DNA of 64,000 nucleotides from Erysipelotrichaceae bacterium (GTDB lineage: Bacteria > Bacillota_I > Bacilli_A > Erysipelotrichales > Erysipelotrichaceae). The position numbers and the translations under genes were made by a program. The stretch is from the NCBI GenBank assembly GCA_017473335.1, contig JAFULN010000005.1, positions 1-64,000 of the forward strand. Reading direction: 5' to 3'. Position 1 is the first letter of the stretch; each line of letters begins with the position of its first letter. Below, one piece after another: positions 156 to 6,567 of the stretch. Under the pieces are notes generated by a model. It was given only the letters and a program-made list of their open reading frames with translations. It was not told the DNA's origin and did no database searches.

Positions 156-1082
156 TTATTGTGATTCACAGCTACACTTTTCTGTTTCCTCCTGTATGAG
201 CTGTACAGGTTCTTCATCGAAGATTGTTAATCTGTATTCTTTAGGAGACATGCCAATAGATTTTTTAAATAATGTAGAGAAATGATTTGGATTTGAAAAA
301 CCAAGTTCATTTGAAATCGTTTTAATGGATAGAGACGGATTTCTCAGGTAGTTTTTAGCCAGCTGAATACGATAGGCCAGTAAAAGCTGCTGAGGGGATT
401 TTTTTGCATGTTTTACAAATATCTTATATAGATAGATTTCACTGATACCTATTGCAGAGGCGATATCACTGATTTTAATGTTTTTACTGATATTTTGATT
501 GATATAATGAATAGCTTGATTAAAATATCCAATAGATCCTGTAACACGTTCAATTTCTTTATCGGTATTATGGAAGAGGAAAGAAAGACGAATCATGGAA
601 ATAATAATATTATAGAACACGCCCTGGATGCTCATGCAGTATCCGATTTCTTTTTTATTGCCTTCATCAAACATAAAGTTAAAGAATGATCGAATGCGAT
701 TGTTTTTGTCATGAACATGATACTGTGGGAAAGTTTTGGACATGAAATCATTAAACTGTTGACGAAGTGCTAAATTTCCTACTTCAAAGTTAATGAAAAA
801 CAAAACGACATTTTCTCCGCCTTCTTCAACTTCTAGGATACTTTCTGGAGGTAGATAGACTAAAGTATTGGCTTCAATACGTGTTGTTTTTCCACAGCAT
901 GTATAGAATACATGACCATCTGCAATATAATTCAAACGATATAAGTGTCGGAATTCTTCACCGTAGGGTTTATTTGTATTGGTTAATACACTTCCATATT
1001 CAATTGCCTTTAGTTCAAACTGACGCATCATCATACATAAATCATCTGTAATAATAGGATGTTTTGTTACCTGTGGTTTCAT
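156..1082 (-). CDS. AraC family transcriptional regulator
   Basis: Probable transcription factor of 308 residues. The N-terminal half (about 30-140) reads as a cupin-like AraC ligand-binding domain (LYRLNYIADGHVFYTCCGKT, LVYLPP). The C-terminal 100 residues hold two helix-turn-helix motifs, with the family signature GFSNPNHFSTLFKKSIGMSPKEYR near residues 263-286. The start is supported by GAGGTGAT ahead of the ATG. It is divergent from the FMN-binding lipoprotein gene across 167 nt and may regulate it, which is inference from position only. The ligand is unknown. The last 25 residues (acidic, with CSC) extend past the usual end of the domain. Confidence 0.9.
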   Translation of the reverse strand: MKPQVTKHPIITDDLCMMMRQFELKAIEYGSVLTNTNKPYGEEFRHLYRLNYIADGHVFYTCCGKTTRIEANTLVYLPPESILEVEEGGENVVLFFINFEVGNLALRQQFNDFMSKTFPQYHVHDKNNRIRSFFNFMFDEGNKKEIGYCMSIQGVFYNIIISMIRLSFLFHNTDKEIERVTGSIGYFNQAIHYINQNISKNIKISDIASAIGISEIYLYKIFVKHAKKSPQQLLLAYRIQLAKNYLRNPSLSIKTISNELGFSNPNHFSTLFKKSIGMSPKEYRLTIFDEEPVQLIQEETEKCSCESQ

Positions 1083-1249: not shown

Positions 1250-2239
1250 ATGAAAAAGTTATTCATTTTATTGATCCTTGTGCTGGTTTTGGCTGGCTGT
1301 GGCTCTAAAAACGGTACAAATCCTGATCAGGATACTAATGAAACACCAGTAACTGTGAAGGCTGGGGTGGGAAGCTTTACAACGGTTTCTAGCAAAGATG
1401 TTGTAGATGGCTCAGGTTCTGCAGTAGCAGTGACTACATATGCTGCTGTAGTTGTAGATGCTGAAGGAATCATTCAGTATGTTCATTTTGATACAGTACA
1501 GAATACTGCAAAGATTGATGGTGAAGGTAAGGTTACTTTGGAAGCAGCTGCTACAAAGAAAGAAATGAGTGAGTCTTATGGCATGGGTGTTTATGCGCCA
1601 AAGGGTGAATGGGACAAGCAGATTGGTTCTTTGGAAACTTATATGGTTGGAAAGACAATTGCGGATATGGTGACTCTTTCTGTAGATGATGCAGGCAAGA
1701 GTGTAGAGGCTGATATTTTATCTGGATGCACAGTAGGTATTAATGAACTGCTGGCAGCTTTGGATAACGCAAATAAAAATCTGACAGATGTAGAAAACGT
1801 CTCAAAGGCTTATGCAGGTTCTTATACATCTGTAAGTTCCAAAGATGTTGTGGATGGTACAGGTTCAGCAGAAGTAGTTACTACATTTGGTTTCACTTTA
1901 ACAGATGCAGAAGATAAGATTGTCTATGCAAACTTTGATACAGTGCAGAATACTGCAAAGATTGATGGTGAAGGTAAAGTGACTTTGGAAGCAGCAGCTA
2001 CAAAGAAAGAAAAGGGCGATTCATATGGCATGGGAGCTTATGCACCAAATGGTGAATGGTATAAGCAGATTGCACATTTGGAAAATACTTTGACGGGAAA
2101 GACAATTGCAGAATTTACAGGTGCTGCACTTGATGAAAATGGCAAGAGTCTGGATGAAGATGTTTTGTCTGGATGTACAGTACATATCAGTGAATTTGTA
2201 GATACACTGAATGCATCATTTGTGACTGATTTACAGTAA
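1250..2239 (+). CDS. Tandem FMN-binding lipoprotein, PplA/cAD1-precursor-like
   Basis: Predicted surface lipoprotein of 329 residues. It has a short lipoprotein signal peptide with lipobox LAG|C (Cys17), a Ser/Thr/Asn-rich linker, then two copies of one domain (about 33-175 and 182-325), each with the TKKExxxSYGMGxYAPxGEW segment of FMN-binding-type lipoproteins. Each copy ends in D-(I/V)-L-S-G-C-T (Thr161 and Thr310), which resembles the SGAT-type site where ApbE-like transferases attach FMN, though with Cys in place of Ala. This domain pair is known from Listeria PplA, a flavinylated electron-transfer lipoprotein, and from the enterococcal cAD1 precursor. The RBS GGAGGAAAG precedes the ATG. 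The ribU gene and its FMN riboswitch lie 1.3 kb downstream. No apbE, eetA or ndh2 is in the window, so the electron-transfer role is inferred. Confidence 0.8.
   Translation: MKKLFILLILVLVLAGCGSKNGTNPDQDTNETPVTVKAGVGSFTTVSSKDVVDGSGSAVAVTTYAAVVVDAEGIIQYVHFDTVQNTAKIDGEGKVTLEAAATKKEMSESYGMGVYAPKGEWDKQIGSLETYMVGKTIADMVTLSVDDAGKSVEADILSGCTVGINELLAALDNANKNLTDVENVSKAYAGSYTSVSSKDVVDGTGSAEVVTTFGFTLTDAEDKIVYANFDTVQNTAKIDGEGKVTLEAAATKKEKGDSYGMGAYAPNGEWYKQIAHLENTLTGKTIAEFTGAALDENGKSLDEDVLSGCTVHISEFVDTLNASFVTDLQ
1487..2011 (+). repeat. Internal direct repeat, two 78-nt near-identical blocks
   Basis: The blocks at 1487-1564 and 1934-2011 differ at only a few, mostly synonymous, positions and lie 447 nt apart, exactly 149 codons. 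They encode the central part of each FMN-binding domain. The nucleotide identity is much higher than in the rest of the two domains, which suggests recent duplication or gene conversion. Confidence 0.85.
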
Positions 2240-2251
2240 TCATCTTTTATT

Positions 2252-2286
2252 TAGGAACTGTTCTTTTTTGGAACAGTTCTTTTGTT
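2252..2286 (+). terminator. Terminator after the FMN-binding lipoprotein
   Basis: Stem GAACTGTTC / GAACAGTTC with a TTTTTTG loop, followed by TTTTGTTTC, starting about 12 nt after the stop codon. Confidence 0.8.
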
Positions 2287-2520
2287 TCGTTGTAATATGT
2301 CTGATAAATTCCATAATTCTGTTTAAGAGTACGGGTGGGAATTCTCCGTATTGTTGAGCAGATGATTATTGGATATAGTTCATTAGGCTATCTTAGAATG
2401 CTGCAACAATTGTGTTGTTTTTAGTGATTTGTATTGTGAATGTGTTAAGAGTATGATAGGTAAATGAACCGGACATTGTACCTGTTTTGTTATTTTGTTA
2501 TAATTTTCGTGGTGATAAAC

Positions 2521-3300
2521 ATGGATAGAAAGTTTTTCTTTTTTGATATTGATGGAACTTTGACAGACATTAAGACCTTTGAAGTTGTCAAATCTTCTGT
2601 TGATGCAATTCGACAGTTAGAGAAGAAGGGACATGTGTGCGCTTTAGCATCAGGACGTGCTCATTTTAGAGCGAAGCAGTTTGCTCAGGAGAACGGATTT
2701 AAAAATATGATCTGTGAAGGTGGAAACTGTATTGTAATTGATGATGTAATGGTTGTGGATGATGGATTAGATCAGGACTTGGTGAGTTCTATTGTGAAAC
2801 AGGCCTATGGTTTAGGATTGAGTGTCGCAGCTTCTTTTGATGACAGTGATCGAAGATATACACGTGATGAAGAGTTTTTAAAGCGTGTTGGGAATACTCA
2901 GCCATTTATGACAGTAGAAATTGATGAATTATTTGATGAACATTTGAAAACATTGAATGTGAGACGTTTATTTGTGGAAAAAGATCCAGAAAAGATTGCT
3001 CAGATTCCTGAAGTGAATTTATTAGGGCAGTATCCGATGACTACGTATGATTTTACAATTTTTGAATGTGATGACAAGTATCGAGGTATTCAGCGTATGG
3101 TGAAGATGCTGGGTGGCGATGAGAAAGATGTCGTGGTTTTTGGAGATGGAATAAATGACTGCAAGATGATGAAAGAGGCAGCATTTGGCATTGCGATGGG
3201 AAATGCCTGTGATCAGTTAAAAGAAATTGCAGACTATGTGACTGCAGACAGCACAGATGATGGGATTGTCAAGGCGCTCAAGCACTTTGGCTGGCTCTAG
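2521..3300 (+). CDS. HAD-IIB (Cof-type) phosphatase
   Basis: Cytoplasmic sugar- or cofactor-phosphate phosphatase of the haloacid dehalogenase superfamily, 259 residues. Motif I is FFDIDGTLTD, motif II lies at LASGR, and motif IV is VVFGDGINDCKMM near the C-terminus; the C2-type cap sits in between. The open frame extends 19 codons upstream, but the start used here follows GTGGTGAT and gives the normal HAD N-terminus directly before the DxDGT motif. The substrate cannot be told from sequence. It is a single gene between the lipoprotein terminator and the FMN riboswitch. Confidence 0.85.
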   Translation: MDRKFFFFDIDGTLTDIKTFEVVKSSVDAIRQLEKKGHVCALASGRAHFRAKQFAQENGFKNMICEGGNCIVIDDVMVVDDGLDQDLVSSIVKQAYGLGLSVAASFDDSDRRYTRDEEFLKRVGNTQPFMTVEIDELFDEHLKTLNVRRLFVEKDPEKIAQIPEVNLLGQYPMTTYDFTIFECDDKYRGIQRMVKMLGGDEKDVVVFGDGINDCKMMKEAAFGIAMGNACDQLKEIADYVTADSTDDGIVKALKHFGWL

Positions 3301-3348
3301 TATTTACAAGAAAAGCAAAAGTGACTATAATATAGATGCATAAAATAA

Positions 3349-3457
3349 GTCTTCAGGGTTGAGTGTAATTCTCTACTGGCGGTATACTCCGCGAGCCACA
3401 TGTGTGGTCGAATCGGTGAAACTCCGATAGCAACAGTGATAGTCTGGATGGAAGAAG
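3349..3457 (+). promoter_or_regulatory. FMN riboswitch (RFN element)
   Basis: The conserved RFN blocks are present in order: CTTCAGGG, a TCTCTACTGGCGGTAT block, CCGCGAGCC, TCGGTGAAACTCCGATAGC, and the closing block AGTCTGGATGGAAGAAGG. It lies in the leader of ribU and is followed by a hairpin with a U-rich tail, so FMN binding should cause premature termination. Identification is by motif recognition, without a covariance-model search. Confidence 0.93.
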
Positions 3458-3483
3458 GGCTGTTTTGTTTATCCTTTAAACAG

Positions 3484-3518
3484 AAGTGTACCTGGAAGTT
3501 TATTTTAGGCACACTTTT
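3484..3518 (+). terminator. Riboswitch-controlled terminator in the ribU leader
   Basis: AAGTGT and ACACTT arms, with an inner CCT/AGG pairing, followed by TTCTTTG. It lies between the FMN aptamer and the ribU RBS, as expected for an attenuating expression platform. Confidence 0.7.
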
Positions 3519-3539
3519 CTTTGTTTAAGGAGGGATTTT

Positions 3540-4178
3540 ATGACAACGAAGAAGATGACGACAGTGGGAATTCTGTGTGCGATGGCACTAGTCTTGGCAA
3601 TCATGATTTATGTTCCTATCGTTCCTGCAGTTTCTTTTCTGAAGTATGAACCAAAAGATGTAATTATGGTTGTGGGAGGATTCATTTATGGACCGATGAC
3701 AGTCGTGCTGATGAGCTGTATCGTGTCTGTACTGGAGATTTTCTTTCGACCAGGGAACTTGATTGATGTGATCATGAATGTCATTTCTACAGTTGCTTTT
3801 GCGGGGACTGCTGCATTGGTGTATCGCAGAAATCATACAAAAAACGGGGCAATCATTGGATTAATATCGGGTGTTGTGGTAACTGTTGTGGTTATGATTT
3901 TATGGAATTACATTGTAACGCCAATCTATTATCAGATGCCTCGTGAGGCTGTTGTGGCAATGATGATTCCTGGTATTATTCCATTTAATCTGATGAAATA
4001 TGGATTGAATGCTGGGATTACATTAGTGCTGTATAAACCAATTGTGAATGTGTTAAGAAGATTTAAGATGGTTGAATCAGGTAGCAAGTCTACCAGCAAT
4101 AAGGCAATGCTGATGCTGGGAGTGTTTGTCGTGATTAGTATTGTTGGTGTGATTCTGGCACTGCAGGGAATTATCTAG
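3540..4178 (+). CDS. ribU: Riboflavin ECF transporter S component, RibU family
   Basis: Membrane substrate-binding subunit (212 residues) of an energy-coupling-factor transporter for riboflavin. Several hydrophobic helices and the ECF-S pattern (FLKYEPKDVIMVVGGFIYGP near the N-terminus) fit RibU. The open frame extends 18 codons upstream through the terminator hairpin; the real start follows AAGGAGGG. Regulation by the upstream FMN riboswitch independently supports riboflavin as substrate. The ECF ATPases and T subunit are not in the window. A split-barrel flavoprotein gene follows after 10 nt and is probably cotranscribed. Confidence 0.92.
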   Translation: MTTKKMTTVGILCAMALVLAIMIYVPIVPAVSFLKYEPKDVIMVVGGFIYGPMTVVLMSCIVSVLEIFFRPGNLIDVIMNVISTVAFAGTAALVYRRNHTKNGAIIGLISGVVVTVVVMILWNYIVTPIYYQMPREAVVAMMIPGIIPFNLMKYGLNAGITLVLYKPIVNVLRRFKMVESGSKSTSNKAMLMLGVFVVISIVGVILALQGII

Positions 4179-4188
4179 GAGGTTAGTT

Positions 4189-4644
4189 ATGGAATTTAAA
4201 CAGGCAGTAGAAATTCTTTGGAAGAAATTAGGGAATTATAAGATCATGGCACTAGCTAGTTCAGTAGACGACTATCCAATGATTCGTAATGTGAGCTGTA
4301 TTTTCTATCATGATCGTATTTATTTTAAAACAGATAAAAACTTTAGAAAGACACAGCAGATGCTTCAAAATAACAAAGTAGCGATGTGTTTTCATGGCGT
4401 TTCGCTGGAAGGTATTGCGAAAAATACAGGGCTTGTGATTGATGAGCCAGGACGTATCTTTGAAAAGAAGTATCAAGAATATCTGTGGCAGAGCTACAAT
4501 GCATATTCACATGTGGATACTGAAATTTTAATTGAAGTGGAACCTAAATTTGTGGAAATCTGGGATGATGACGAAAATAAGAATGCTTATCAGATTTTCA
4601 TTAATTTTGATACAAAAGAAGTAGAAGTTAAGAAATATGACTAG
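4189..4644 (+). CDS. Pyridoxamine 5'-phosphate oxidase-like flavin split-barrel protein
   Basis: Small cytoplasmic protein of 151 residues with the PNPOx-like split-barrel pattern: an N-terminal helix, then LASSVDDYPMIRNVSCIFY, and DRIYFKTDKNFRKTQQM. Family members bind FMN or F420, but many have no assigned reaction. It sits 10 nt downstream of ribU behind AGGAGGTTAG, under the same FMN riboswitch, which favours a flavin-dependent function. The actual substrate is unknown. Confidence 0.8.
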   Translation: MEFKQAVEILWKKLGNYKIMALASSVDDYPMIRNVSCIFYHDRIYFKTDKNFRKTQQMLQNNKVAMCFHGVSLEGIAKNTGLVIDEPGRIFEKKYQEYLWQSYNAYSHVDTEILIEVEPKFVEIWDDDENKNAYQIFINFDTKEVEVKKYD

Positions 4645-4732: not shown

Positions 4733-5104
4733 ATGAAGATAAAGAGATTGCCGGACAGTGAACTGGAAATTATGCAGGCTTTATGGAAGTGTGATGGTCC
4801 TGCAAAAAGAAGTGATATGGAAATACATCTGGATAAAGATCATCCAATAGCATTGACGACATTATTAACACTTTTGAGTCGTTTGAGTGAAAAAGGATTT
4901 ATTAAGATTGAGAAACAGGGAAGAAGCAGTGTGTATACTCCATTAATCTGTGAACATGAGTATCTTTCTTCTCAAAGCCGTCGTTTTATTGATAAGATTT
5001 GTGGAGGTAATTTATCAGCGTTTGCTTCAGCACTTGCGGACAGTGGACTAACGAAAGAGGAACTGGAAGAGCTTAGAGAACTTTTGAAAAGGGATGAACT
5101 ATGA
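4733..5104 (+). CDS. BlaI/MecI family transcriptional repressor
   Basis: 123-residue winged-helix repressor (LPDSELEIMQALWK, TTLLTLLSRLSEKGFIKIEKQGRSSVYTPL) with a C-terminal dimerisation helix. In the family, cleavage or release after signalling by a partnered M56 membrane protease derepresses the operon. RBS GAGGTGAT. Its stop overlaps the start of the M56 gene (ATGA), indicating translational coupling. Two matching operators lie just upstream. The inducer is unknown; no beta-lactamase gene is nearby. Confidence 0.9.
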   Translation: MKIKRLPDSELEIMQALWKCDGPAKRSDMEIHLDKDHPIALTTLLTLLSRLSEKGFIKIEKQGRSSVYTPLICEHEYLSSQSRRFIDKICGGNLSAFASALADSGLTKEELEELRELLKRDEL

Positions 5105-6567
5105 ATATGAATCGAGTCTTTCTGGTTTTGGTTTATATTTTCGTTGCTTTGGCACTGATAATCAAGTTTTATTCTACAAATCTTCGATTAGTGAAAAATG
5201 GACAGAGTGTTCAGTATGTTGACTACTCTTCTTCAATCTATCATCCTGTTATGATTCCTACAATGCTGGCGGCTATTGGAATTTTGATGCCAATGATGGG
5301 AATCTTCACTCTCTTTGATTATGTGTATGGCATCTTATTTCCGATGTTTATTGAATTGTCTTTGTATTATGCAATTCTGATTTGTTGTGCTCCTTTGGTT
5401 AAAAGGAAATTGTCAGCGAAGGCATGTGCTGCATTATGGATTTTACCGAATCTGATGTATGTTGCTTATGTTCAGCCAAATTTTAGAGTTCAGCCTGATG
5501 TCGTGATTTCACTGAATCATCATTGGGCGATTGTACTTATGATTGTGTGGGGACTAGGTTTTTTTGTGACTATGGGCTGGTATATCCTGACCCATTTACA
5601 TTTTAGAAAGAAGATACTCAAACATTCAAAAAAAGTGTTTGATGATAAGATATTTAAGATTTGGCAGGAAGAATTCAAAGAAAGTGAAGTAAAAATCAAG
5701 CAGCAGGATAGTTTACTAATTTGTGAGAATTTAACAACTCCATTAACGATTGGATTGTTTAAAGGCAGCATACGTGTTCTTCTTCCTCATAAAGAATATA
5801 CTGAGCATCAGCTCCGCTTAATCTTTCGTCATGAACTCGTTCATTTGAAGAAAGATGATAATTTGTCTAAGTTTTTCTTTGCTTTCTGCAATGCCTTATG
5901 CTGGTTTAATCCTTTGATGTGGGGTGCGATGAAACAGTGTGCAGAAGACTTGGAAAGAAGCTGTGATGCTGCAATTTTAATGGAATCAGATCAGACAGAA
6001 CGTAAGGTATATGCAGAGTTGATTTTGAATTCAGATGCAGACCAGCGAGGTTTTACAACGTGTTTATCTTCCTCTTTTGAATCTATGCGTTATCGTTTAA
6101 AAGAAATCATGACTCCTGTCAAGCTGCACTCTGGAATAGGTGTATTGGTTGCGGTTGTTCTCTTATTGTCTATGATGACAGGAAAAACTGCGTTTGCCTA
6201 TCACTCTAGAAACTTGGATTTTTCAAATTTCGGTGATCTTGTTGAGATTAGAATCATTGAGGCAGATGGAATCACTGTGGATGATATTGTTCAATGCAAA
6301 ACTGATAAAACGGTTATAGATAAATTATCTGAACTTGAAGTAAATGAAATATCACTGATGTATCAAAATAGTTTGTCTCATGATTTATGTTTATCTATGA
6401 AATTTGAAGACGTTTCTTGGTATAGTCTTGAGATTGCGGAGATTGAAAATGGACTTTTAATCTATGAAGAATATAGAAAAGAGAAGTATTATCGACAGTT
6501 ATACTTCTGTGAAGGAGAAACAATAGATTCTATTTTATCAATGCTAAATTTAGAAACAATAGATTAG
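5101..6567 (+). CDS. M56 family (BlaR1-like) membrane metalloprotease sensor
   Basis: 488-residue integral membrane protein. The N-terminal part has several transmembrane segments; the cytoplasmic zinc protease site is HELVH at residues 244-248, followed by the third-ligand region EDLERSCD. A further transmembrane helix at about 345-365 leads to an outer C-terminal region of about 120 residues. That region is not a penicillin-binding domain: it lacks the SxxK/SxN/KTG set, so beta-lactam sensing is unlikely. Family logic is that a signal received outside activates the protease, which inactivates the partner BlaI repressor encoded immediately upstream. The ligand is unknown. Confidence 0.88.
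   Translation: MNMNRVFLVLVYIFVALALIIKFYSTNLRLVKNGQSVQYVDYSSSIYHPVMIPTMLAAIGILMPMMGIFTLFDYVYGILFPMFIELSLYYAILICCAPLVKRKLSAKACAALWILPNLMYVAYVQPNFRVQPDVVISLNHHWAIVLMIVWGLGFFVTMGWYILTHLHFRKKILKHSKKVFDDKIFKIWQEEFKESEVKIKQQDSLLICENLTTPLTIGLFKGSIRVLLPHKEYTEHQLRLIFRHELVHLKKDDNLSKFFFAFCNALCWFNPLMWGAMKQCAEDLERSCDAAILMESDQTERKVYAELILNSDADQRGFTTCLSSSFESMRYRLKEIMTPVKLHSGIGVLVAVVLLLSMMTGKTAFAYHSRNLDFSNFGDLVEIRIIEADGITVDDIVQCKTDKTVIDKLSELEVNEISLMYQNSLSHDLCLSMKFEDVSWYSLEIAEIENGLLIYEEYRKEKYYRQLYFCEGETIDSILSMLNLETID

Follow-up and report, generated by a model that had tools for sequence, protein, structure and literature searches.

The window analyzed here, i.e., the whole stretch of 64,000 nucleotides of contig JAFULN010000005.1 from an Erysipelotrichaceae bacterium, a gut-type anaerobe (assembly GCA_017473335.1), contains a gene encoding a putative surface lipoprotein with two tandem domains, each ending in a motif that resembles the site at which the flavin transferase ApbE attaches flavin mononucleotide (FMN). 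The elements of this gene are:

1250..2239, plus strand: lipoprotein of 329 amino acids (P0001), assigned as double FMN-bind2 from the open reading frame (ORF), the sequence and the predicted structure
1289..1300, plus strand: lipobox L-A-G-C17 (LAGC, residues 14–17), predicted lipid anchor, from the sequence
1352..1801, plus strand: domain 1 (residues 35–184), FMN_bind-like fold with insertions, from VIA-align and a model with a predicted local distance difference test (pLDDT) score of 95.9
1712..1732, plus strand: predicted flavinylation site 1, DILSGC-T161, from alignment with the SGAT of FMN_bind domains
1802..2236, plus strand: domain 2 (residues 185–329), tandem copy of domain 1 (63% identity)
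2159..2179, plus strand: predicted flavinylation site 2, DVLSGC-T310, from the sequence and the conservation of the site in relatives

The two domains (150 and 145 residues) were 63% identical over 136 amino acids (E = 3e-60) and 77% identical at the DNA level, with a motif-to-motif spacing of 149 residues; because they represent a tandem duplication, the paired DILSGCT/DVLSGCT motif was inherited and did not arise by chance. An initial annotation, made from the DNA letters alone, had described a lipoprotein with two domains ending in D-(I/V)-L-S-G-C-T, and the repeats carrying T161 and T310 bear this description out. In the Pfam scan, LPAM_1 scored 14.7 bits on the lipoprotein, below its cut-off of 20. 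A single-domain paralog with the motif DLLSGCT is encoded in the same genome (locus L041, 6321–6806).

The initial annotation had also called the domains FMN-binding-type, which held for the fold and for a profile match but not for Pfam. The lipoprotein showed no match to Pfam FMN_bind (PF04205) even at E ≤ 1, and no Pfam family exceeded its cut-off (the Dot/Icm, DUF, and similar rows were all below it, and PHROGs rows were weak); among 47 family members, two matched FMN_bind at E ≤ 0.01 (best E = 0.003). A profile of 62 family domains matched the solved structure 2kzx (E = 6e-7), in an alignment that places the SGAT of 2kzx on the family motif and also aligns YxM...EWxxQ; a fragment of 2kzx exceeds the Pfam FMN_bind cut-off (25.2 vs. 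22 bits), and it is through 2kzx only that the sequences indicate homology of the family to FMN_bind. The AlphaFold2 model of the full protein had a pLDDT of 91.9 and a predicted template modeling (pTM) score of 0.86, and the model of domain 1 contained three strands of 15–16 residues. VIA-align ranked 2kzx (Z = 8.2, 109 residues aligned, 4.1 Å) and 3o6u (Z = 8.1, 108 residues aligned, 3.3 Å) at the top for the domain model, followed by IscU and carbon monoxide dehydrogenase (CODH)-type matches (Z = 5.6–6.8). The FMN-bind2 class, published in 2024 with a double-domain example from Erysipelotrichaceae (PMC11334425; preprint PMC10979944, Fig. 1B), is characterized in the accessible part of that paper by domains of ~160 residues, as compared to 120 for FMN-bind1, in which insertions into an FMN_bind core lengthen the beta sheet; domain number is even, and the double-domain proteins, which are flavinylated by ApbE, pack their two sheets as a pseudo-symmetric unit (PMC11334425). 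The lipoprotein presented this domain size, an insertion-lengthened sheet on an FMN_bind core, and an even domain count, and is best classed as a double FMN-bind2 lipoprotein, i.e., a member of an already published class.

Linkage of the family to flavin and electron transfer genes was computed for relatives in named genomes, for which the best 79 of 368 loci were kept; counts out of 77 omit loci L133 and L157, which lack an anchor ORF. The nearest of these relatives, on a contig of Erysipelotrichaceae bacterium RGIG7276, was 67% identical. Two domains were present in 74 of the 77 relatives, four in two, and six in one; four- and six-domain members are located immediately 5′ of apbE (L121, L132, and L165). 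The gene directly downstream (same strand, gap <300 bp) was apbE in 34/77 loci, and apbE was found within 6 kb in 37/77, with apbE-linked relatives spanning Coprobacillaceae-like and Clostridia lineages. Flanks with at least two rnf genes were found at 13/77 loci and eetB at 12/77. Two genomes of the same bacterial family (G195 and G292) presented a same-strand run of the lipoprotein gene, apbE, rnfCDGEA, an eetA-like gene, and eetB, where the rnf and eet names come from within-set similarity, PF07456 matches at the same places, and reading by eye. An order-wide survey identified the family in 127 of 315 genomes; apbE was present in 119/127 family-bearing genomes vs. 117/188 others (Fisher p = 2e-11), and rnfD in 114/127 vs. 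121/188. Among the matches listed, at least 24 of the 100 genomes with both had eetB ≤3 kb away from a member of the family (single-domain members in at least 21 genomes, two-domain members in at least three). The single-domain FMN-bind2 lipoprotein genes in these at least 21 genomes are 99–885 bp from eetB (e.g., G013:C7, G026:C7, and G282:C6), which ties them to export of flavin adenine dinucleotide (FAD).

Over the 162 motif sites of the 77 relatives (sums made by hand from per-protein tallies), the last residue was Thr in 148 and Ser in 14, and the third position was Cys or Val in 144. The textbook [S/T]GA[S/T] was found at a single site (L102, second domain); the 37 proteins whose flank contains apbE have 82 sites, none of them canonical. 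Variants such as SSVT and AGCT occur in the family (e.g., in L144 and L141). Such a pattern would also fit an FMN_bind fold that binds a non-covalent flavin or another ligand, with the conserved Tyr, Glu-Trp, Gln, and Lys mattering rather than the Thr; the family does not conserve the motif's G and A, as compared to K103, Y110, M112, E120, W121, Q124, G134, and K135, which were invariant over 47 aligned sequences. However, a terminal Thr or Ser was kept at 162/162 sites, and the directly downstream apbE at 34 loci likewise argues for covalent attachment, so that we consider a fold without covalent flavin unlikely. The 2024 paper terms the FMN-bind2 sites [S/T]GA[S/T]-like in its accessible part (PMC11334425), and no discussion of the near-total absence of the textbook motif in this family was found in the literature searched, which covered few subscription papers.

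The initial annotation had let its reading hinge on an ApbE-type flavin transferase; two ApbE genes were identified in the genome (contigs C6 and C17; assembly completeness 94.7%), in agreement with the relatives that adjoin apbE. The apbE gene on C6 (L041, 16225–17424) adjoins rnfC, rnfD, rnfG (three FMN_bind domains), rnfE, and rnfA; rnfC, rnfE, and rnfA were over an NCBIfam cut-off, and rnfD was below it (188 vs. 207). Because relatives often adjoin rnf, eetA/eetB, and apbE, and because the rnf operon of this genome itself adjoins apbE, Rnf is the likelier electron source. A total of 20 FMN_bind domains were over the cut-off in the genome, and FAD_binding_2 was also found in six of the seven such ORFs scanned. 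At the rnfB position, a gene on the minus strand (L041, 10762–11067) encodes 101 amino acids with no NCBIfam match at E ≤ 1e-20, and similar ORFs of ~100 amino acids were found in 11 of 79 related loci; a shortened RnfB, if real, would alter the connection between ferredoxin and Rnf.

The initial annotation had compared the lipoprotein to PplA of the Listeria-type extracellular electron transfer (EET) chain, in which Ndh2 reduces demethylmenaquinone, which in turn reduces the flavinylated lipoprotein, and had named eetB and dmkA among the genes to look for; neither was found over its cut-off. UbiA, the family of the quinone prenyltransferase DmkA, reached at best 13.1 vs. 34.2 bits in a genome search that was positive in 14/14 control genomes and that did not extend to Ndh2, DmkB, and FmnA; a sub-threshold match is located on contig C45. 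One of four genus genomes (G003) contains UbiA within an apparent polysaccharide locus, and its use as a mark of an EET locus was rejected, as the neighbors resemble (by eye) polysaccharide or membrane-glycan genes. EetB reached 18.8 bits against a cut-off of 30; because the three congeners G001–G003 have EetB and the assembly is incomplete, this absence may represent an assembly gap. A sub-threshold PF07456 match on contig C30 was dropped as a possible EetB; we take this ORF to resemble a thiamine-type energy-coupling factor (ECF) S component. The two-flavin-domain architecture, the ApbE genes, and eetB in the congeners would be consistent with a PplA-type chain, as would the use of exogenous quinones for EET by some lactobacilli (PMC10746273, accessible part). 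The lack of UbiA over its cut-off, along with the motif and spacing differences set out below, nevertheless makes a PplA-type chain very improbable here. The earlier interpretation thus holds in so far as it proposed a double FMN-binding-type, probably ApbE-dependent lipoprotein, but not in its link to Listeria PplA and EET, given SGCT motifs and neither UbiA nor EetB over the cut-off.

The genes and elements on either side of the lipoprotein gene are:

156..1082, minus strand: AraC-family regulator identified in the Pfam scan, oriented away from the lipoprotein gene (divergent), with the same layout in congener G001
2253..2281, plus strand: terminator-like hairpin at the end of the lipoprotein unit, from a consensus scan
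2521..3300: HAD-phosphatase gene between the lipoprotein gene and the riboswitch operon
3345..3463, plus strand: FMN riboswitch RF00050 before ribU (96.3 bits vs. gathering threshold 66.2), a neighbor outside the lipoprotein unit
3540..4175, plus strand: riboflavin ECF-S component RibU (ECF_trnsprt 65.9 bits, cut-off 30.7; ECF-ribofla_trS 36.1 bits, cut-off 26.7)
4189..4644, plus strand: PNPOx-like split-barrel protein 3′ of ribU (PF01243 26.9 bits, below the cut-off of 28.1)

The initial annotation correctly placed ribU and a flavin split-barrel gene 1.3 kb away, although the latter was recognized as PNPOx-like only below threshold; the FMN riboswitch is likewise nearby and is the sole Rfam match within the window. 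However, the lipoprotein gene is outside the riboswitch-controlled unit, as it has its own hairpin (the consensus scan gave four terminator-like sites in the region vs. 1.5 expected) and is followed by the intervening HAD-phosphatase gene; RibU is associated with the lipoprotein by proximity alone. This proximity, as well as the lack of any lumazine synthase in the genome search, which makes riboflavin import by a predicted auxotroph probable and flavin uptake probably necessary, could suggest that the lipoprotein captures extracellular flavins and passes them to the RibU importer. We regard this as most improbable: the FMN riboswitch was absent near the 24 relatives' loci scanned (of 79), a single-sequence search found no RibU near the 77 relatives, the terminator-like hairpin separates the two units, and a covalent flavin is ill-suited to a delivery protein. 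A RibU association was accordingly rejected as a conserved feature of the family, and the functional use that the initial annotation made of this proximity falls with it. The HAD phosphatase 5′ of ribU presented a sub-threshold match (77 bits vs. a cut-off of 220) to a YcsE-related phosphatase of riboflavin metabolism. Directly after the PNPOx-like gene are genes for a BlaI-type repressor and then a BlaR1/M56 peptidase-like membrane protein (4733–6567). The intergenic region between the AraC-family regulator and the lipoprotein gene is alike in the window and in G001, and both have a common block around TATGTCAA.TGAAAGGTT; the regulator and this block represent a candidate regulator and operator of the lipoprotein gene. 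The window starts at the start of the contig (G000:C80), so that genes upstream of the AraC-family regulator are out of sight.

We thus favor, with a probability of roughly 0.62 for the statement as a whole, the reading that this gene encodes an ApbE-flavinylated, two-domain surface FMN-bind2 lipoprotein for which Rnf is the likely electron donor. Anchored at the cell surface, the tandem FMN-bind2 domains would receive FMN from exported FAD, moved by ApbE onto Thr161 and Thr310, so that an electron carrier with two flavins would result on the external side of the membrane. That the lipoprotein is such a flavinylated carrier appears very likely. The most likely source of its electrons would be the Rnf complex, in which RnfG has the three FMN_bind domains noted above, and the chance that Rnf is the main donor appears to be about even. 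The electrons may then pass to extracytosolic reductases with FMN_bind and FAD_binding_2 domains, which are numerous in this genome and represent the first candidate acceptors, or to small molecules outside the cell. By importing riboflavin, RibU would feed the flavin pool and serve the carrier only indirectly.

Several observations weigh against this reading. The lipoprotein gene adjoins neither apbE nor rnf in its own genome. The Foldseek top 50 contained no FMN_bind structure, either for the whole protein, for which matches were poor, or for the single domain, and hhalign against FMN_bind1 gave a probability of 11.7%. The order-wide counts ignore shared ancestry and genome completeness, and 13 of the 127 family-bearing genomes lack rnfD, while eight lack apbE, including one that is 96% complete (G297). 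Eight of the 13 rnfD-less genomes belong to one genus (g60, G211–G220; seven of these eight have apbE), and 10 of the 13 have apbE; such genomes weigh against a general dependence of the carrier on Rnf. The likeness to the ApbE motif seen by the initial annotation is partial, as DILSGCT and DVLSGCT keep the D, S, G, and T of D-x-x-[S/T]-G-A-[S/T] and have Cys for Ala. According to the accessible part of PMC12052999, replacing the Gly by Ala or the Ala by Val in another ApbE substrate approximately halved flavinylation; because these mutants keep about half of it, a relaxed ApbE motif is plausible.

A broader proposal, which we put forward tentatively and judge somewhat less probable than its alternatives, is that the ApbE site is far wider than D-x-x-[S/T]-G-A-[S/T] (here x-[G/S]-[C/V]-[T/S]), that many two-flavin carriers escape surveys based on the textbook motif or on Pfam FMN_bind, and that in quinone-poor Erysipelotrichia and Clostridia such carriers form a counterpart of the PplA chain that is fed by Rnf and does not depend on Ndh2. 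If so, the accepted ApbE recognition motif would be too narrow and flavinylated surface proteins of gut bacteria undercounted; Gram-positive anaerobes would then have two ways to load surface flavin carriers, i.e., quinone-fed PplA and Rnf-fed FMN-bind2.

Among known systems, the lipoprotein is closest to the Erysipelotrichaceae FMN-bind2 protein (PMC11334425/PMC10979944), with which it shares two tandem, extracytosolic domains of ~150–160 residues, the bacterial family, and an FMN_bind core with extended strands; the two are likened by description and not by sequence, and no difference was established from the accessible parts of these sources. It shares a common fold over 108–109 residues with 2KZX (A3DHT5, Clostridium thermocellum) and 3O6U (CPE2226, C. 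perfringens), which differ as single, shorter FMN_bind domains, with a canonical SGAT in 2KZX. RnfG and NqrC, which are ApbE substrates, also have an FMN_bind core; unlike the lipoprotein, they are membrane subunits of a complex, and the structural match was weak (NqrC 4xhf, Z = 4.4). PplA and enterococcal Cad resemble it as lipoproteins with two FMN_bind-type domains and an ApbE link, in outline a surface two-flavin carrier, and the modeling of Cad on CPE2226 suggests an assignment of PplA to FMN-bind1. However, as far as the accessible part of PMC7074142 goes, all Cad/PplA orthologs examined there have SGAT, the gene cluster includes NADH dehydrogenase (Ndh2) and quinone prenyltransferase genes, and cad is linked to apbE only in genomes without rnf, whereas the lipoprotein described here has SGCT in an rnf-bearing genome; the flavin sites of PplA (Thr143 and Thr265) are 122 residues apart (PMC8906456, accessible part) vs. 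149 here. With neither the motif nor the quinone features of the PplA system, the lipoprotein probably lies outside the Listeria-type pathway and is best regarded as a probable surface flavin carrier of the FMN-bind2 class.

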